42,489 nucleotides of DNA from Acidimicrobiaceae bacterium (GTDB lineage: Bacteria > Actinomycetota > Acidimicrobiia > Acidimicrobiales > Acidimicrobiaceae): NCBI GenBank assembly GCA_013044385.1, contig JABEUN010000035.1, positions 1 through 42,489 of the forward strand, written 5' to 3'. Numbering within the stretch: the first letter of the stretch is position 1; each line of letters starts with the position of its first letter. The notes below the pieces were generated by a model. It was given only the letters and a program-made list of their open reading frames with translations, was not told where the DNA came from and ran no database searches. Of this stretch, positions 12,319 through 21,200 are shown in pieces. A program made the position numbers and the translations under genes.

Positions 12319-13398
12319 TCACGCCTCCGAGCCGGCTGCGATTGTGTCTTCCACCTGCATCTTGCGCTGACGGTCGATCTCCTCTGCTACTGACTCATCT
12401 TCTTGCATCATCGCATCGACGTCAGCGTTCGCGAATCCGATCACGCCCATCTTTTCGAATGCGTCTTGCATGGTCTGTCCCCATAGTCCGATGTCACGGA
12501 GTATCGGAACGATCCTCATGAATAGGAAACTTCGGAACTGGATCTGGCCCTCGGCGTTTTTGACCCAATCCTTGCACGACTCGACGTCTAGGTCGAGTGT
12601 CTCCCATACCTCCTCAGAAAGGAAGCGGTTTTGCATCTGGAAGCAGGCTTCGGCAGCGAACTGTTCCCGCTCTTGCCTCTCTTTAGAGGTGAGCTGCGGG
12701 TAGTAATCCTTGAGTGAGTTGCGACCGAAAGCGACGTGACGGGCCTCGTCTTGCATTACATAGGCGGTGACGGTCTTTCCGAGCTGGTTGGTGGTGAAGT
12801 TCCTAATCAGGCCGAACGCTGCCAAGGCTAAGCCCTCGATCAGCACCTGCATGCCTAGGTATGTCATGTCCCATCTTGAGTCATGCAGAACGTCTTCAAG
12901 GATCGACTTGAGGTTGTAGTTGATTGGATAGGCGACACCTAACTTGTCTAGAAATGTTGAATAGACCTCAACGTGTCTAGCTTCGTCAAATACCTGCGTG
13001 GCAGCGTAGTATTTGGCGTCGATGTCTGGTACGGATTGCACGATCTTCGATGCACAGATCAATGCACCCTGCTCGCCGTGGAGGAATTGAGAGAACTGCC
13101 AGCCAACGAGATGGCGCCTCACCTCGGCCTTTTTGGCGTCCGATAACTTGTTCCATATCGGCGAACCGTAGAGCGGTCCGAACTCGTCTGGCCCACCCAG
13201 TGGGTCGTCTGGGTCGATTCCCTGGTCCCAGTCGATTCTTATCTTTGCATCCCACTGGCGCCGCTTGCCCTTTTCGTAAAGGTTTAGCAACTTCTCACGG
13301 CCGTTGTCATAGTCCCAGGTGAACCTGACCATACCGCTTCCATCGGCGACTTTCCAACCAGTCTTGTCGACCGGGATAACGAACTCCTTGACGCTCAC
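12319..13398 (-). CDS. Ferritin-like di-iron protein (R2/monooxygenase-like)
   Basis: 359 residues. A full set of di-iron ligands is visible: Glu109 (FLHGEQGA), Glu139 and His142 (FDEARHVE), Glu188 (VLIEGLAL), Glu218 and His221 (QDEARHVAFG). The doubled DEARH motif and four-helix spacing match the ferritin-like superfamily that includes ribonucleotide reductase R2 and bacterial multicomponent monooxygenases; some are N-oxygenases or acyl desaturases. The substrate cannot be inferred, since no reductase or partner subunit lies next to it. The GTG start at 13398 is set by GGAGG 6 nt upstream; the frame runs further to 13440 without a ribosome site. It stands alone, with 174 bp to the downstream gene. 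Confidence 0.86.
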   Translation of the reverse strand: MSVKEFVIPVDKTGWKVADGSGMVRFTWDYDNGREKLLNLYEKGKRRQWDAKIRIDWDQGIDPDDPLGGPDEFGPLYGSPIWNKLSDAKKAEVRRHLVGWQFSQFLHGEQGALICASKIVQSVPDIDAKYYAATQVFDEARHVEVYSTFLDKLGVAYPINYNLKSILEDVLHDSRWDMTYLGMQVLIEGLALAAFGLIRNFTTNQLGKTVTAYVMQDEARHVAFGRNSLKDYYPQLTSKERQEREQFAAEACFQMQNRFLSEEVWETLDLDVESCKDWVKNAEGQIQFRSFLFMRIVPILRDIGLWGQTMQDAFEKMGVIGFANADVDAMMQEDESVAEEIDRQRKMQVEDTIAAGSEA

Positions 13399-13499
13399 TG
13401 CGGACCTCCAATGCTTCGCCACCGCAATCAGTGTGTACAATTCTCAAGTTATCAGTGGTTGCGATCCATGTCCGGTCAGTACGAACTTGACTTTGTGAC

Positions 13500-13520
13500 A
13501 GCTGTCAGCTGTCAGCTGTC
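13500..13520. repeat. Three tandem copies of AGCTGTC
   Basis: A 7-bp unit occurs three times and covers the stop codon of the zinc-ribbon gene (13505-13507). The unit boundaries create palindromic ACAGCTGT, so the stretch can also fold on itself and may help end transcription. Confidence 0.7.
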
Positions 13521-14119
13521 TCGGCATCGGGCCGGTTCACCTCGACGGACTCAGCTGGAGTTGGAATTGCCAATAAGAGGCCGACCAAGATTCCGAAGAT
13601 TCCATATGGCATTAGCGGCCTAACGCTCTTGGTAAGGAGAATGTCGAGCCCGGATCCGATTGGACCTGGCTTTGCAGAGCCGAGGAGGACTACGTCGCCC
13701 GTCGAGTCGATTAGGTGCAGTCCGGTAGGCCCATCAAACTTGATTGCGAGACGGGCTCTGCCATCTGCGGATTCGACCTTGGCAACGAAAGCCGAATGTC
13801 CGTTGGCCGGTGGCTCAAAAACCATGGTCGTCGTCGGTTGGAGAGACCGGTTCAGTAGGGCCGCTGATGTGTGGCCATCCTGACGGTGCGTGATCAGATA
13901 GAACTCTGAACTCTGTGACGCCGAGTTCTTGATCTGCCAGACCTCTTCGAGCTTCGTAGCGACCGCGACGTCGGCACACCCGGCCCGCCAGATGAAACCA
14001 TCCAAATTGCCGATCAGCTCATATGAGCCGGTCCCATCGGGAGATAGTCCGCAGTACGGGCATTTCGCCGAGCTTTTCGGAAGGGGGAGGCCACAGGCCA
14101 AGCATGATTCCACCACCAT
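13505..14119 (-). CDS. Zinc-ribbon protein with C-terminal membrane segment, unknown function
   Basis: 204 residues from the ATG at 14119. CLACG and CPYCG, 12 residues apart, form an N-terminal zinc ribbon. A beta-rich middle domain follows (LIGNLDGFIWRAG, FYLITHRQDGH, LAIKFDGPTGLHLIDSTGDV), and a hydrophobic segment near the C-terminus (YGIFGILVGLLLAIP) suggests a tail anchor. The middle part resembles phospholipid-scramblase-like beta repeats in feel, but I cannot assign a family. A TTG at 14140 is an alternative start, 9 nt after the preceding gene's stop; neither start has a clear ribosome site. The close gap suggests it is the last gene of the fbiC-LOG operon. Confidence 0.75.
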   Translation of the reverse strand: MVVESCLACGLPLPKSSAKCPYCGLSPDGTGSYELIGNLDGFIWRAGCADVAVATKLEEVWQIKNSASQSSEFYLITHRQDGHTSAALLNRSLQPTTTMVFEPPANGHSAFVAKVESADGRARLAIKFDGPTGLHLIDSTGDVVLLGSAKPGPIGSGLDILLTKSVRPLMPYGIFGILVGLLLAIPTPAESVEVNRPDAETADS

Positions 14120-14149
14120 TAGATCGGTATTGTGGTCCAAGTGCTTTAG

Positions 14150-15190
14150 TCAGCGGGCCGATATCCTATCGATTAGCAGCCTGAGCCGGCCGTATGACCT
14201 CCTGTTGAACAGGAGTGAAATCCTTGGTAGTTCGACTCTGTCCTGGTCGGCAATCTCCTGCGGTGATGGTGGTACCGCCCGAATCCTACCACTGGTGATA
14301 ATGTCGGAGAATTCAGAGTTGAGTTCGTCCAGCTTGGATTCATCCAGAGGTTCCTTCAGCCTGAGAATCAGCCGCGATCCGATCCAGCGGAGCGAGTCGT
14401 AGTTGGAGTAAAAGCCGGTAACTTCGTCCACGGTCTCTTCAATTGAGTGGAGAATCCGATATAAACCTAGGTCCTCTTCGGATACCAATCCCCTCGCCAA
14501 GGTCTGACTCTTCAGAAAGTGATCCAGCGCATCCCAGTACCCAAAGCCGGCGGGATCGACCAGAACCAGCGGTGCCAACTGGGCCTTTCCCGTCTGCATG
14601 AGGGTCAGTAACTCGAAAGTCTCATCGAGGGTACCGAGGCCACCCGGAAAGGAGATGAACGCATCGGACTCTTTCATGAGCATCAATTTCCTCGTGAAGA
14701 AGTACTTCATCTCGATCAACTTCGTCTCCCCATCAGGCTCCACGAAGGGAGCTTCAAAGGGTAGGCGAATATTGATTCCGAATGCATTGCGAGATCCCGC
14801 ACCGCTCATTCCGGCCGCCATGATCCCCGGACCGCCACCGGTGACCACCATCCAGCCTTGGTCGGCGAATTTGCCGGCCACGTTCTTAGCCATCAGGTAG
14901 CTGGGTTCATCGGACAAGGTACGGGCCGAGCCGAAGATAGTCACCTTCCTCGTGTCCCGGTAGGGGGAGAATAGCGCAAAGGCGTGATTTAGTTCTGCAA
15001 GTGTTGCGTTCACGATCTTCAGGTCGAGCTTGGCCAGCCCCGAACCCGCAATTAGCAGGGCCTCTTCAACCAACTTGAGCGCAAGATCGCGATTTGGCAG
15101 GTCCCGATCGATTCTCGATTCCAGTCCATCGATACCGTGTTTGGGTAGTTCAGCCCTTGACACGTCTGATCTGCACCTCGACCCCTTCAT
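14150..15190 (-). CDS. LOG-family Rossmann-fold protein (TIGR00730-like)
   Basis: 346 residues from the ATG at 15190. GSARTLSDEP, VTGGGPGIMAAGMSGA, RKLMLMKESDAFISFPGGLG and GTLDETFELLTLMQ are the nucleotide-binding and PGGxGTxxE motifs of LOG proteins. These cleave nucleoside 5'-monophosphates (AMP or cytokinin ribotides) or bind nucleotides; many bacterial copies are misannotated as lysine decarboxylases. The protein is longer than a minimal LOG (~200 residues), with extra helices at both ends. It overlaps fbiC by about 41 nt if ATG 15190 is used; GTG 15163 is an alternative. The frame runs on to 15319, but that part is antisense-free overlap with fbiC and implausible as LOG. Confidence 0.85.
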   Translation of the reverse strand: MKGSRCRSDVSRAELPKHGIDGLESRIDRDLPNRDLALKLVEEALLIAGSGLAKLDLKIVNATLAELNHAFALFSPYRDTRKVTIFGSARTLSDEPSYLMAKNVAGKFADQGWMVVTGGGPGIMAAGMSGAGSRNAFGINIRLPFEAPFVEPDGETKLIEMKYFFTRKLMLMKESDAFISFPGGLGTLDETFELLTLMQTGKAQLAPLVLVDPAGFGYWDALDHFLKSQTLARGLVSEEDLGLYRILHSIEETVDEVTGFYSNYDSLRWIGSRLILRLKEPLDESKLDELNSEFSDIITSGRIRAVPPSPQEIADQDRVELPRISLLFNRRSYGRLRLLIDRISAR

Positions 15191-17489
15191 CTGAATACTG
15201 TGGCAACTGCATCGCTGGGTTTTCGTCGACGATCTTGTAGAGGGTGTTTCGCTGGTAAAGCGGCCTTGAGACTGAGTTTGCAATCTCGAGGAGGTCGGCC
15301 ACTCCGGCGGATCGGCCATGTTCTGAACCAGCGGCGTGAGATATATTCTCGTCCATCAGAGTTCCACCCAGATCGTTGCATCCAGCCCGTAGCAGCTGTG
15401 TTGCACCTTTCGGTCCGGCCTTCACCCAAGATGCCTGGATGTTGTCTATGAGGCCCCGGTAGGCAATTCGGCCAACCGCATGCATCAGGAGAGTCTCTCT
15501 CCAAGTCGGACCCCTCCTGGCTTTCCCGGTCAAATAGATCGGCGACGCCATATGTACAAATGGAAGCGGTACGAACTCAGTGAATCCCTTTGTTCGCCTC
15601 TGCAACTCTCTGGTCCTGACGATGTGATCGACCCAGTGCCTGGGCTCTTCAACTGAGCCGAACATGATCGTGACATTTGAATTCAGGCCTACTTCGTGGG
15701 CTGTCTCGTGGACTTCGAGCCACGTCTCAGAATCGATCTTGTCTGGGCAGAGTATTGCCCTAATCTCGTCGTCAAGGATCTCGGCAGCAGTGCCGGGCAG
15801 GGTGCGCAGACCGGCCGCCTTCAACATTCCGAGATACTCCCGCAAGCCGGTTCCGAGTCTCCTTGCCCCTTCGTTCACCTCTAGGGCCGAGAATCCATGT
15901 ATGTGTATGCTTTGAGAGACCTCTCTGATTGCTCTAATTACGCTCAGATAGTACTCACCATCAAAGCTCGGATGGATGCCGCCTTGCAGGCAAACCTCGG
16001 TCGCTCCTACGGCCTCAGCCTCTAGGACCCGACCCTGTATCTCCTCCATGCCGAGCAGGTACGGTTCACCCCTCAGGTTGAGCGACAGTGGTCCTTTGGA
16101 GAAGGCACAGAATCTGCACTTGAAGGTGCAGATGTTGGTGTAATTGATGTTCCTGTTGTTTATGAATGTGACCGGCTGGCCTGATTTCTCCTGTCGGATG
16201 GAGTCGGCGAGTTCGCACACCTGATCGACCTCGGCCCCTCTTGCGCCGAAAAGGGCGAGAATCTCCTCCGGACCAGCCTCTTGGCCAGAATCGATCTCGG
16301 CAAGGAGTGTAGCAATCCTTCGGGTGGTTGCCGGCCCAGGTATTCCAATTTTGACTCCCGCTGAATGTCGCATAGGAGGTTCGGCCGATCCCCCTGAGAC
16401 CCAGCCGTTCTCCCTGGCGTGTCCGGAGGAGTCCGAGTGGTCCAGTACTTTTCGTACCAGCGTTGCATCCACCCACTCTGTTGGGTTTTTTGCATATCGT
16501 GGCTGCAGTGCGAGCCGGGGTGTGAGCTGAAATCCGTCGACCTCCAGCTCCTTTGCCAGTATCTCGGTGTTTGGCCAGGGTCGCTCTGGATTCACGTGGT
16601 CCAGCGTGACGGGTGAGATTCCGCCGAAATCTGATATGCCGGCGGAGATCAGTGCCATCGGATCACCAGTGAGGTTTGGCGGTGCCTGGAGGACTATCTC
16701 ATCGGGCAGTACCAGTCGAGCCAGTGCAATCGAGCGCAGGTAGTCCTCCTGTGCTGGTGGCTCGGCTCTCGACATTCTCGTACCCGCCTTGGGGAGGAAG
16801 TTCTGTACGATGACCTCCTGAATGTGTCCGAAGCGGCGGTGCGAGGCTGCGATAGCCAGAATCGAATCCATTCTGTCTCTCTCTACCTCTCCAATTCCGA
16901 CGAGAATTCCTGTCGTAAATGGGATCTTTGCATCTCCGGCCGCATCGAGGGTCTCGAGCCTGCGGCTTACATCTTTGTCCGGAGAGCCCTTATGGCAATC
17001 GAGACCGGGCGCAGTGCTCTCGAGCATCATCCCCTGGGACACGCTCACGCTTCTTAGGGTCTTCATTTCTGCGCCGCTGAGGGCTCCCGCATTTGTGTGT
17101 GGTAACAGATGAGTTTCAGAGATCACCAGTGATGCGGCGTATCGAAGGTAGTCCACTGTGGATTCGAATCCCTTGGATTCCAGCCACCTCCTTGCTACGG
17201 GGTATCGTTGCTCCGGGCCCTCGCCGAGGGTAAATAGCGCCTCGGTGCAGCCGGCCCTCTCCGCCTGCTCGGCCAAGTTCAGTATCTCCTCCTCGGCCAT
17301 GTACGGAGAGGAGATCCTTGCTGGAGCCTTAGCAAAGGTGCAGTATCCGCAACGATCCCTACAGAGCATCGTCAGCGGAAAGAATGCCTTCGGTGAATAG
17401 GTAATTGTCGACCCCGAGATGGAGTCTCTTCTCTCTGATGCAAGGCGGAGAAGTTCGCGTGTAGGTAGCTCAAGAAGTTCGTAGCTCAT
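15150..17489 (-). CDS. fbiC: FbiC, fused CofG/CofH FO synthase for coenzyme F420
   Basis: 779 residues carrying two radical-SAM halves. The CofG half has CRDRCGYC (Cys43, Cys47, Cys50) after PKAFFPLTML. The CofH half has NYTNICTFKCRFCAFS (Cys454, Cys458, Cys461). Together they build 7,8-didemethyl-8-hydroxy-5-deazariboflavin from tyrosine and 5-amino-6-ribitylamino-uracil, the deazaflavin core of F420. The fused form is typical of Actinobacteria; other lineages keep separate CofG and CofH. ATG 17489 is preferred over the TTG at 17498, which would sit inside the GGAG site. It is preceded by the Pgi-like gene with a 67-bp gap and overlaps the LOG gene. Other F420 genes (fbiA, fbiB, cofC) are not in the window. 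Confidence 0.96.
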   Translation of the reverse strand: MSYELLELPTRELLRLASERRDSISGSTITYSPKAFFPLTMLCRDRCGYCTFAKAPARISSPYMAEEEILNLAEQAERAGCTEALFTLGEGPEQRYPVARRWLESKGFESTVDYLRYAASLVISETHLLPHTNAGALSGAEMKTLRSVSVSQGMMLESTAPGLDCHKGSPDKDVSRRLETLDAAGDAKIPFTTGILVGIGEVERDRMDSILAIAASHRRFGHIQEVIVQNFLPKAGTRMSRAEPPAQEDYLRSIALARLVLPDEIVLQAPPNLTGDPMALISAGISDFGGISPVTLDHVNPERPWPNTEILAKELEVDGFQLTPRLALQPRYAKNPTEWVDATLVRKVLDHSDSSGHARENGWVSGGSAEPPMRHSAGVKIGIPGPATTRRIATLLAEIDSGQEAGPEEILALFGARGAEVDQVCELADSIRQEKSGQPVTFINNRNINYTNICTFKCRFCAFSKGPLSLNLRGEPYLLGMEEIQGRVLEAEAVGATEVCLQGGIHPSFDGEYYLSVIRAIREVSQSIHIHGFSALEVNEGARRLGTGLREYLGMLKAAGLRTLPGTAAEILDDEIRAILCPDKIDSETWLEVHETAHEVGLNSNVTIMFGSVEEPRHWVDHIVRTRELQRRTKGFTEFVPLPFVHMASPIYLTGKARRGPTWRETLLMHAVGRIAYRGLIDNIQASWVKAGPKGATQLLRAGCNDLGGTLMDENISHAAGSEHGRSAGVADLLEIANSVSRPLYQRNTLYKIVDENPAMQLPQYSDEGVEVQIRRVKG

Positions 17490-17556
17490 TATCTCCAAAC
17501 CTATCGCAGTTAGCGCAACACTCGTAGCTCGCCCATCGGATCCCGGGTTATTTTGG

Positions 17557-18924
17557 TCAACCGTTCAGCAGTTCGCTGTCGTCGAGTGTCAATAGACGGA
17601 CTGAGCTTCGGCCTACCCTTTTCATACCCGCCACCTCGATATCTGCGAGCGCCATGTTGACCTCTCCGAATCCGAACGACTCTCCCGGTATCGGCAACCT
17701 ATTGGGTTTTCGGTTCGGCATCACCTGAAGGACTAATGGCCGAGCTGGACCCGACCGGAACATGGGGCTGAGGTTCGTCAGGTGGCCGGGACCGTTGCAT
17801 ACGAAGGTCGGGATCCGATCGAACCTATCGCTCCAGGCTCGCATGACCGAATTCTTCATCTTGTTGTCGAGTGGCGGACCCCAGTTGACCACGGCAAGAT
17901 AGGAGTCCGACCTCCGTTGCCTAGATATCCATTCATTCGCTGCCTGGAGACTGATTCCTGACGGAGCCTCAGGCGGATTTGCGAGGATCTCCCTTAGCTG
18001 TTCGTCCTCGATATCTGTCCTTTTAGCTTCCATAAATGGATCGATGCCCAGCTCGCTTGCGAAAAGGACCGCAAAAATCTGCCACGCAAGGACGAACCTT
18101 GCAATCGAGGCGGGATCGCTACCGCCTTGGCAGAGACTGGTCACGCCTAAGGCGGCATCCAGGGTCACAGATTTTGTAGCAACTAGGCCCCGAGCTGTCC
18201 TTCCGAGCGTGGATGCCAGGAACTCCTCTAGCCAGTCAGATGCCGCCTCGAGCGCTGAGGCACCCGATACCCCGAAGACATTGACTCCCTCGCGTGCTAG
18301 CAGTGCGTGATTGAATGCAGCCGCTGCGATCTGATCGAGATCGATATCGGAGGTGATTATTACGGATTGAGCTGCGGTCCCTCCCAGGAAAGAGATCACA
18401 GCTGTATTGGCGGGATCGAGGGTAGAAAAGGCCGTTCCCAGTTCTGGGTCAAGGTGCAGGGATCTCCAAAACCCCTCCTCGGTTGCGAGACGGTCGAGGG
18501 AGGATCCGGAGTGCGAGATCGCTGCAAACCTCCTTGGAGTGCGGATCCGCTCTCGCAGATAGCGTAGCAGCCACTGACTCTCCTTCTCCAGGCCTGGAGG
18601 TGCGGTAAAGACTACGAAGCTGTCCGAAAGTTCGAGCTCGTCGAGGAGGTCCGTATTTGTGGAGTCCACGAAGGTGATCTCGCGTCCGTTGCCGGTTCCA
18701 GTGCTAAGTACGGACTCGGCAAGCATCTTTGTGGACGAGCCCATGCCAAGTCCCACCCAGAGAATTTTTGACTGGTCGACTGTATCAGTCCACCGTTCTA
18801 ATTCAGATATCTTTTCTGACCTAGATGCCTGTGGGCCGATCCAACCGAGTCGCAAAGCACTGCTGTTGGTGTTCGGCCAGAGCTGTCCGTCAAGGGCTAG
18901 AAGGCGCTCTACCTGGTCGTTCAC
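17557..18924 (-). CDS. Glucose-6-phosphate isomerase-like (SIS) protein with eroded active-site motifs
   Basis: 455 residues. It aligns by eye with the Pgi half of bifunctional transaldolase/Pgi proteins: WVGLGMGSSTKML (57-69, cf. GMGGSS), AISHSGSS (cf. SKSGTT), then EEGFWRSLHLDPELGTAFSTLD where active relatives have GGRYSALS, and WLEEFLASTLGR where they have WxEQLxAESTGK. The C-terminal lysine motif is not seen. It is therefore either a weak or altered isomerase or a non-catalytic SIS protein. Its GTG overlaps the tal stop by 4 nt (GTGA), with GGAAGGGG just upstream, so translation is coupled to transaldolase. The two genes look like a split form of the Tal-Pgi fusion. The function is uncertain. 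Confidence 0.82.
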   Translation of the reverse strand: MNDQVERLLALDGQLWPNTNSSALRLGWIGPQASRSEKISELERWTDTVDQSKILWVGLGMGSSTKMLAESVLSTGTGNGREITFVDSTNTDLLDELELSDSFVVFTAPPGLEKESQWLLRYLRERIRTPRRFAAISHSGSSLDRLATEEGFWRSLHLDPELGTAFSTLDPANTAVISFLGGTAAQSVIITSDIDLDQIAAAAFNHALLAREGVNVFGVSGASALEAASDWLEEFLASTLGRTARGLVATKSVTLDAALGVTSLCQGGSDPASIARFVLAWQIFAVLFASELGIDPFMEAKRTDIEDEQLREILANPPEAPSGISLQAANEWISRQRRSDSYLAVVNWGPPLDNKMKNSVMRAWSDRFDRIPTFVCNGPGHLTNLSPMFRSGPARPLVLQVMPNRKPNRLPIPGESFGFGEVNMALADIEVAGMKRVGRSSVRLLTLDDSELLNG

Positions 18925-20012
18925 AGTCCCCTTCCGACTTCAACTGCTAACTGGTCGAGAAGGTTGAGATGGGCGCTTTCAAAACTTCGCAGCCCCTCCT
19001 CTTCGAGCTGCTTGAACACGGCGTCAAAGTCGACACCCGCCGCTTCAACACTTTTGATCGTGGCGGCCGCCAGATCTGAGCCTTCCAAGATCGTCTGGGC
19101 CAACGTCCCGTGATCAAGGTATGACTGCAAAGTCGCGTCTGGCATCGTGTTTACGGTTCTGGGTCCGATGAGTTCATTCACGTAAAGTAGGTCGGAGTAG
19201 GCTGGGTTCTTCGTCGAAGTCGATGCCCACAGTGGACGCTGTATCGTCCCCCCGACGGCCTCGATCTCCCTCCAGCTGTCATCGCTAAATACGTCGAGGA
19301 ACTTTGCATAGGAAAGCCTCGCTAGGGCTACGGCCGACCTTCCCCGCAGTTCGCTTGGCGCTCCCAACTGGTCGAGCAAACTATCGACGAGGGTGTCTAT
19401 CCTGCTGACAAAGATGCTGGCTACCGAATGGGTGGTCCGTAGCTTCTCGGGAGAGTCAACTTGAAGCCGTCTCATGCCTAGCTGATATGCCTCCATAACT
19501 TCCACGTACCGATTTAGGCCGAACACGAGGGTGACATTGACGGAGATTCCGCTGGCAATTGCTTCTGTGATGGCCGGCAGGCATGCTGCAGTTGCGGGGA
19601 TCTTGATCATTACATTTGGCAGCGATAGCCGCTCTGCGAGCTCCTTAGCGGATCGGAGCGTGCCATCTGGGTCCTGGGAAAGCCGAGGATCTACCTCCAC
19701 AGATACGAATCCGTCTGTTCCGTTTGACCTTTGGTGAAGTGGTAGTAGGTGCTTTGCCGCCCTAGCAATGTCTGAAAGCACCAACTCCCAATACGCGCTT
19801 TCTGCGGTCTGTCCCCTGAGCTGTTCGATCTGCTCTCGGTACTCGGGGTCTTGGCCTATCGCTGTGGCTAGGATCGACGGATTCGAGGTGAGTCCCCTAA
19901 CTCCAAGTTCGATCAATTCGTCCAGCGTTCCGTCAGAAAGCCAAGAGCGACGCAGGTTGTCTATCCATGGGCTCTGTCCACAGTCGGAATAGAGTCTGGT
20001 AAGTCTGCTCAC
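18921..20012 (-). CDS. tal: Transaldolase
   Basis: 363 residues. It has GLTSNPSIL near residue 43, FVSVEVDPRLS, the Schiff-base segment NVMIKIPAT with Lys137, SGISVNVTLVFGLNRY, SVASIFVSRID and RPLWASTSTKNPAYSD. This is the longer transaldolase common in Actinobacteria. It moves a dihydroxyacetone unit from sedoheptulose 7-phosphate to glyceraldehyde 3-phosphate in the non-oxidative pentose phosphate pathway. The GTG at 20012 has GGAAGGG 6 nt upstream. It lies 30 bp after the FIST gene and overlaps the Pgi-like gene by 4 nt, so these form one operon. All expected catalytic elements appear intact, unlike its Pgi-like neighbour. Confidence 0.95.
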   Translation of the reverse strand: MSRLTRLYSDCGQSPWIDNLRRSWLSDGTLDELIELGVRGLTSNPSILATAIGQDPEYREQIEQLRGQTAESAYWELVLSDIARAAKHLLPLHQRSNGTDGFVSVEVDPRLSQDPDGTLRSAKELAERLSLPNVMIKIPATAACLPAITEAIASGISVNVTLVFGLNRYVEVMEAYQLGMRRLQVDSPEKLRTTHSVASIFVSRIDTLVDSLLDQLGAPSELRGRSAVALARLSYAKFLDVFSDDSWREIEAVGGTIQRPLWASTSTKNPAYSDLLYVNELIGPRTVNTMPDATLQSYLDHGTLAQTILEGSDLAAATIKSVEAAGVDFDAVFKQLEEEGLRSFESAHLNLLDQLAVEVGRGL

Positions 20013-20042
20013 TAGTTACCCTTCCGGAAGAATAAGGGCAGT

Positions 20043-21200
20043 CTAGCTACCCGAACCCATCCGAATCAGCGCCGAGGTCAACGATGAACTTTCGGAGCTT
20101 CCAGCGGGGAAGTGCTTGATGCGGTCGGCGACAAGTCGAACAGCGGCCGTCTCTGCTTCACTAGATGTAGCTCGCGTCTCAAATGCGTTTCGTGCGTCAC
20201 TACGTTGCCATCGTCGGGTTACCAGAAGTCCGTCGTGGACCTCAGAGTCAGGTCTCAGGATCGACAGTGGACTGTAACGCATGAACTGGATCACGTCGCC
20301 GACATCGAAACTGTCGGCACTGCATATCGACTCGTCAGAAATGACCAAGTCAGTGATTGGGTGGATGCTGAATGGTCCATCCCGGTAGTCCGCAGAGTAT
20401 GGATCCGTTGGAACCCCGATCATCAGGTCGGACAACTCTAGCGCGTCATCTGGAATGCCGTTGTCGATCACAGTGCGCATGAGCGCAACGGCGGCTGGGA
20501 CGCCGCCTAGTTCAAAGATGGAAACCCCATCGGCCCTCGTCACAGTCATCGGATCTCCGACCGGGATAAGGCCCTGCTGGGCTGGTGTCGCAGTGGCAAA
20601 ACTGATCGACTTTTCAGACCAGAAGATGATCAGGATGGCGCCTTCACGAACGGTCTCTCCGAGCACCGAAGCTACCCGGGGTCGGTCTCCGGGTTCGAAG
20701 CTCAAGCTAAGGAGATCCCCACTGGAGTAGATGGTTCCCCACACGGAGGCGAATTCATCCTCGAAGACCTGGTTGGATAGCGAAAGGAGTATGGCCGTAG
20801 GATTTCTGACTTCTGGGTAGTTCTCGCCTGACTCCCTGAGTAGCTTCTCCCATGCCTGGCGGTCAGTAGGCGAGTTGGTTGGGGGAGGTAACCACAGACT
20901 GCTGACACCGGTAGAAGCCGCACACAGCATTGCTGAAGTGGGGAAAGAACCCCCTCCTACTGCGATGCCCGGAATGGTCTCTGCTGTCATGACCACAAGA
21001 TTCGAAGGTTGCAAAAGCACCTGGGCGGCTTTAGTGCAGTGGTCAATCGAATCGGCAAACGCTGTTGGCAGAATTAGCAGACTCAGATCGGGAGCGGATC
21101 CGATTGGCCCCGCAGTCTCGCCGATGAGTTCGCCAAGGGCCGCCGCCGGATTCGATGCGCGCGAAAGGAAGATTGCCATATGTGATGCGTGGTCTTCCAA
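20043..21200 (-). CDS. FIST-domain sensory protein (FIST_N plus FIST_C)
   Basis: 385 residues. The central QQGLIPVGDPMTVTRADG followed by IFELGGVPA matches the FIST junction (usually QGCRPIGxPxxVTxAxGNxIxELxGxPA), and the C-terminal DVGDVIQFMRYSP matches the end of FIST_C. The N-terminal half has GIAVGGGSFP, similar to the GCS/T-type turn of FIST_N. FIST modules are proposed to bind small ligands such as amino acids in signalling proteins; here the domain is free-standing, without kinase or receiver. The usual Cys of QGC is replaced by Leu. The TTG at 21200 has GAGGAG 11 nt upstream; ATG 21179 is an alternative. It is first in the run towards tal, so it may tune central carbon metabolism, which is inference. 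Confidence 0.8.
   Translation of the reverse strand: MEDHASHMAIFLSRASNPAAALGELIGETAGPIGSAPDLSLLILPTAFADSIDHCTKAAQVLLQPSNLVVMTAETIPGIAVGGGSFPTSAMLCAASTGVSSLWLPPPTNSPTDRQAWEKLLRESGENYPEVRNPTAILLSLSNQVFEDEFASVWGTIYSSGDLLSLSFEPGDRPRVASVLGETVREGAILIIFWSEKSISFATATPAQQGLIPVGDPMTVTRADGVSIFELGGVPAAVALMRTVIDNGIPDDALELSDLMIGVPTDPYSADYRDGPFSIHPITDLVISDESICSADSFDVGDVIQFMRYSPLSILRPDSEVHDGLLVTRRWQRSDARNAFETRATSSEAETAAVRLVADRIKHFPAGSSESSSLTSALIRMGSGS

Follow-up and report, generated by a model that had tools for sequence, protein, structure and literature searches.

The question raised by this locus is whether a PGI-like protein encoded directly beside a transaldolase gene (tal) is still an isomerase and, if it is not, why its gene is still there. 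PGI (glucose-6-phosphate isomerase), a glycolytic enzyme, ranks with the best conserved proteins of metabolism, and we know of no described bacterial pseudoenzyme derived from it. The locus lies in a stretch of 42,489 nt (the window), one contig of a draft genome (G000) that comprises 95 contigs and is 95% complete.

The tal/pgi-like locus

The locus and its immediate neighbours contain the following features.

17557..18924, minus strand: Pgi-like ORF, the candidate pseudo-PGI; 455 aa, GTG start, no internal stops (ORF list, NCBIfam PRK09533 match, alignment, fold)
18921..20012, minus strand: tal, intact transaldolase (PF00923, tal_mycobact type); 363 aa, Schiff-base Lys137 (Pfam, TIGR00876)
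18921..18924, minus strand: 4-nt overlap GTGA, formed by the tal stop TGA and the pgi-like start GTG (sequence)
18928..18935, minus strand: GGAAGGGG, Shine-Dalgarno-like, presumably serving the pgi-like GTG (read directly from the sequence)
15150..17498, minus strand: FbiC-type CofGH, conserved downstream neighbour and anchor for the deletion in congeners (homologs in relatives)
20043..21200, minus strand: FIST-domain protein, conserved neighbour upstream of tal in the genus (PF08495, E 1.6e-5)

The ORF coordinates and the 4-nt overlap given in an earlier note on this DNA are both exact. According to profile searches, Tal is a regular transaldolase, with matches to PF00923 (TAL_FSA; E 5.5e-73, 246 bits vs a cut-off of 27), TIGR00876 (E 6.7e-92, 308.5 bits vs 233.75), and NCBIfam PRK09533 (E 1.4e-113). 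It thus has both a TAL_FSA domain above the cut-off and the Schiff-base lysine, and it retains 73 of the 75 residues that are invariant in 31 relatives, including Lys137, which the note had also reported. No other tal was found in G000. The overlap and this conservation bear out the description of a Pgi-like protein coupled to a transaldolase that is itself intact.

Loss of the active site

To judge the Pgi-like protein, 66 alignment columns were used that are invariant in 31 intact relatives (our own alignment; 67 in the alignment made by the tool). At eleven of these columns the aligned PGI structures have known active-site residues, given here in rabbit numbering, and the family alignment to 1b0z, 3ff1, and 2q8n places the Glu, Arg, Lys, and His. 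Beyond the Glu, the His, the Arg, and the phosphate anchors, the labels of the active-site residues are those in general use. The window protein keeps 0 of the 11 active-site invariants vs 30 of the 55 others (Fisher p = 0.0006). The main losses, all identified by alignment, are listed below.

18586..18603, minus strand: degenerate phosphate loop, residues 108-113, APPGLE vs SKSGTT in relatives
18430..18435, minus strand: Gly-Arg of GGR (rabbit G271, R272) replaced by Thr164-Ala165
18211..18213, minus strand: catalytic base Glu (rabbit E357) replaced by Ser238
18007..18009, minus strand: active-site Lys (rabbit K518) replaced by Glu306
17776..17778, minus strand: catalytic His (rabbit H388) replaced by Thr383

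On the phosphate side the substitutions are S>G62, S>A108, K>P109, S>P110, and T>E113, so that rabbit S159, S209, K210, T211, and T214 correspond to Gly62, Ala108, Pro109, Pro110, and Glu113, respectively. The other substitutions are G>T164, R>A165, Q>E234, E>S238, K>E306, and H>T383. The roles of the Glu as base, the His as acid, and the Arg and phosphate anchors in PGI have been described (PMC9436075). Judged on the catalytic residues (E357, R272, K518, and H388 in rabbit) as well as on the phosphate-binding ones, the window protein does not qualify as a PGI.

The earlier note had called the active site eroded on the basis of two motifs, and both readings hold: GTAFSTLD stands where relatives carry GGRYSVLS or GGRFSALT, and WLEEFLASTLGR occupies the position of their WxEQLxAESTGK. 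These motifs are, however, part of a whole loss, since the SKSGT phosphate loop, the Lys of DEPNVxxxK, and the His of LHSTGQ have gone too.

A PGI that is still active, with its residues conserved at shifted positions or simply misaligned, would agree with the result that neither PF00342 nor cupin searches find another PGI in the genome, which is 95% complete. The window protein, however, aligns without gaps through each motif, the alignment to 1b0z and 2q8n places the Glu, Arg, Lys, and His, and an intact-looking PGI/PMI-type SIS protein (L089) is encoded elsewhere. Nor do the catalytic Glu, His, and Lys reappear at shifted positions in the alignment. Misalignment as the cause of the apparent loss is ruled out by the gap-free motifs, the alignment to solved PGIs, and 117 intact relatives, and continued activity is accordingly very improbable; the protein almost certainly lacks isomerase activity.

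Because the genome is a draft and the window one of its contigs, a chimeric contig, a binning error, or sequencing errors might be suspected as well. However, the gene order rnr-like/LOG/cofGH/pgi/tal/FIST/desaturase agrees with that of congeners and family members apart from pgi, and errors would break the frame rather than swap 11 residues in frame, which makes an artefact hardly credible.

Family assignment and fold

The window protein has no PF00342 match up to E 1, in contrast to its intact relatives, but it does match the Pgi part of NCBIfam PRK09533 (E 2.4e-22). Its AlphaFold2 model, built from an alignment of 36 sequences, has pLDDT 85.5 and pTM 0.88, and the top Foldseek and VIA matches of the model are all PGIs. 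The best of them is 1zzg, the T. thermophilus PGI (Z 24.7, 2.5 A, 298 residues, model residues 1-313). For comparison, the intact protein of G082 reaches pLDDT 91.5 and Z 32.8 to the same chain. The window protein is therefore predicted to have the PGI fold and, with the catalytic motif lost from an enzyme fold, resembles a pseudoenzyme in these two respects.

Compared with canonical PGIs (PF00342; 1zzg, 1b0z, 3ff1), it shares the fold but lacks the Pfam match and the Glu, Arg, Lys, and His, and the order of its C-terminal elements differs. In the short PGIs (the window protein, L014, L052, L009), the Lys helix IDPFDEPNVxxxK precedes the His module LHSTGQLHKGGPN, whereas in canonical PGIs such as 2q8n the His module comes first; a profile of the short class aligns to 2q8n with the two elements exchanged, and structural alignment, which proceeds sequentially, breaks off near residue 313-332 in short-class PGIs. 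The pattern suggests that segments of the C-terminal half have traded places. The short tal-linked PGIs of the order (G082 L014, G117 L052) resemble the window protein in length, fold, tal adjacency, and cofGH neighbour, but they differ in their active site, of which the window protein keeps no residue.

As for bifunctional Tal/Pgi (PRK09533 / NF007080), both window genes match it and Tal precedes Pgi in both cases. The window, however, has two ORFs with a 4-nt overlap rather than a single polypeptide, its Pgi part scores 78.6 bits vs a curated cut-off of 712, and its active site is absent, whereas the fused Tal-Pgi members in the family keep GGRYS and ESTGK (the pattern LHSxGQ has no match in the fused proteins). 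The likeness to a split Tal-Pgi fusion suggested in the earlier note holds in part: genomes of the order ordinarily have tal as a gene of its own with pgi behind it, and the fused proteins are a different set, present in some of the same genomes. By these tests, the window protein is neither a functional PGI nor a fused Tal-Pgi.

With the pseudoenzymes described in reviews (PMC5106787, PMC10211241) it shares a kept fold, a lost catalytic motif, and being encoded with an active enzyme. A literature search restricted to open-licence papers returned no PGI-derived pseudoenzyme.

Recurrence of the loss among relatives

A profile scan of genome contigs with the single window protein gave no relatives, while a scan with the alignment gave relatives from many phyla (by record titles only). 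Relatives of the Pgi-like protein occur in 74 of the 198 sampled genomes of the order and are mostly ~450 aa long; tal lies on the same short stretch in 27 of the 29 relative loci fetched (30 with the window's own). Genomes with the short Pgi mostly have no full-length PF00342 PGI, and vice versa, hence the short protein is normally the organism's PGI. According to our own reading of the lists, G142 is the only genome with an intact short PGI that also has a full-length canonical one.

Pgi-like ORFs were read at 124 loci representing 122 genomes (two loci are repeats). Both the GGR and the Glu motif are present in 117 of these genomes, the exceptions being the window genome, G222, G199, G200, and G081. 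The frames of the other four eroded proteins are open as well. The loss is most pronounced in G081 (L106), which keeps 0 of 11 active-site vs 24 of 55 other invariants (p = 0.004), followed by G199 (L110/L055) with 2 of 11 vs 33 of 55 (p = 0.013). G222 (L083/L056) also keeps 2 of 11, but here the active site is not significantly more affected than the rest (p = 0.28). G200 (L111/L054), with 7 of 11, is half eroded; these two cases count against the pseudo-PGI reading.

In the tree, G222 groups with the window protein at 95% support, although the great length of both branches makes attraction possible. G199 pairs with G200 (support 75), and G081 stands beside L013 (support 71) in another family. 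On this topology the erosion has at least three origins: the window and G222 clade, the G199 and G200 clade, and G081. G222, G199, and G081 encode a full-length canonical PGI elsewhere, therefore the erosion goes with redundancy there. The five eroded proteins have no new conserved residues in common at the lost positions.

Since similar losses occurred at least twice more in relatives, the window protein was probably kept for a non-catalytic purpose. We regard it as a pseudoenzyme derived from a tal-linked PGI and retained for a non-catalytic role, with a probability of roughly 0.6.

Divergent tal-linked proteins of genus g73 were also considered as eroded candidates but rejected, as the five tested keep 10-11 of the 11 residues. 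Two divergent g73 proteins linked to tal belong to genomes that have no Pfam PGI match.

Relic or retained protein

The main rival is that the gene is a relic in decay: the genus came to do without PGI, selection was relaxed, and the frame has not yet been lost as it has in congeners. Three congeners whose locus is assembled (G218, G219, and G220) indeed have tal directly followed by cofGH, with pgi deleted and gaps of 210-468 nt (L080 6168-6635, L081 7172-7414, L082 3438-3647), in which no pgi remnant rises above noise. The branch leading to the Pgi-like protein has the great length of 2.31 substitutions per site, and G6PDH, present in every other genome of the family, is not found in G000 and 3 of the 4 congeners; the congener genomes are 76-85% complete, so single absences are weak and the shared absence carries the argument.

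The frame itself, however, argues for a maintained protein. Although the protein shares just 23% identity with its nearest intact relatives, its 455 codons contain no stops and no frameshifts, whereas simulated unconstrained drift gives 8-12 stops. The simulation was started from the window sequence, assumes a wholly unconstrained erosion phase, and ignores indels, which would add to the damage and so make neutrality still less likely. The mean number of stops is 7.8 at 50% amino acid identity and 9.7-11.5 at 25-40%, and none of the 60 runs at each identity level of 60% or below is free of stops. Codon bias is also intact: the synonymous codon choice of the Pgi-like gene is 0.071, within the 0.045-0.099 of neighbouring genes and above every no-bias control (−0.076, s.d. 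0.021). In addition, the losses cluster in the active site and spare fold residues, and other lineages repeat the combination of an eroded protein and an open frame. The evidence for selection comes from the open frame, the kept codon bias, and the drift simulation; against it stand the three congeners without the gene, and no second genome has a close copy. Retention by selection is quite likely on these grounds, and a relic is unlikely.

Sugar metabolism of the genus

The earlier note had proposed a check for a second, canonical pgi; none was found by PF00342 in the 95%-complete window genome, and neither was a cupin PGI (PF06560). No PF00342 match occurs in any of five genomes of the genus. 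Upper sugar metabolism of the window genus seems unusual, as G6PDH, PFK, OpcA, and canonical PGI were not found in G000. PFK and OpcA are, however, absent from the whole family and hence uninformative as markers of pathway loss in the genus.

G000 does have a gene for a PGI/PMI-type SIS isomerase (PF10432; C17:25420-25872, L089), located beside a phosphomannomutase-like frame and present in 38 of the 42 family genomes. Its translation (WKTQINENVK...CHNEITG) was read by eye as carrying the Glu and His motif of PGI/PMI. Distinct from the tal-linked pseudo-PGI and encoded separately, this protein could supply the missing G6P/F6P step.

Possible role of the pseudo-PGI

Under the preferred reading of a retained pseudo-PGI, the ancestor would have been an ordinary short PGI of the order, encoded beside tal. 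The G6P/F6P step may then have lost importance or been taken over, removing selection on catalysis; the failure to find G6PDH and PFK in G000 and the presence of the PGI/PMI-type SIS isomerase are consistent with this step. The whole sugar-phosphate pocket would have been lost subsequently, with the fold, length, frame, translational coupling, and position kept, while selection on the folded protein presumably continued in the window species. The product would be a protein that folds but does not catalyse, is synthesised together with Tal, and probably binds Tal and stabilises or modulates it.

Tal is the likeliest partner because the gene is so tightly coupled to tal and because Tal-Pgi fusions exist elsewhere, and the regulatory subunit proposed in the earlier note appears to be the best positive idea for the role. 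The partnership itself is tentative, and we would put it at somewhat below even odds. Tal does not need this partner, as G218, G219, and G220 deleted pgi and yet keep tal, and the separation of the eroded pgi from tal in G199 suggests that the linkage can loosen, which speaks against a strict partnership. In G199 the two genes are 1078 nt apart, and a GNAT-like frame lies between them on the other strand (L110 1846-2418).

The note's alternative of a changed isomerase fares worse. A SIS fold acting on another substrate, with catalytic residues migrated or new, would suit a protein whose fold remains and whose residues were replaced instead of deleted, and pseudoenzymes with migrated catalytic residues are known (PMC10211241). 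However, the phosphate anchors (S, K, T/S, T) are lost, so a sugar phosphate is not an obvious ligand, and, as noted, no new conserved residue is common to the five eroded proteins where the original ones were lost. A changed enzyme is thus quite unlikely, less probable than even a relic.

More broadly, tal-linked pseudo-PGIs might form a class that arose at least three times in the order, the active site being shed when a different PGI takes care of catalysis or the step falls away, and the copy staying on as a subunit of transaldolase with a structural or regulatory part; we consider this generalisation rather doubtful. If active sites were indeed lost repeatedly while the frame stayed open, this would point to a second function for the Pgi half of the Tal-Pgi pair and would offer a direct test, namely whether a catalytically dead Pgi binds and changes Tal. 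As for annotation, a similarity-based call of bifunctional Tal/Pgi or pgi would wrongly credit the organism with the reaction.

Conserved gene order

The order tal/(pgi)/cofGH(FbiC)/LOG-like is kept family-wide, and CofGH homologs adjoining tal or pgi in relatives are 57-67% identical. The order tal/pgi/cofGH is also found in genus g73, which belongs to another family (loci compared: window 12319-21200, L080-L086, and L093-L105). The conserved order ties the pentose-phosphate pair to F420 synthesis. On the other side of tal, the FIST-domain protein is fast-evolving, with 29-31% identity to its homologs in congeners vs 56-57% for tal.
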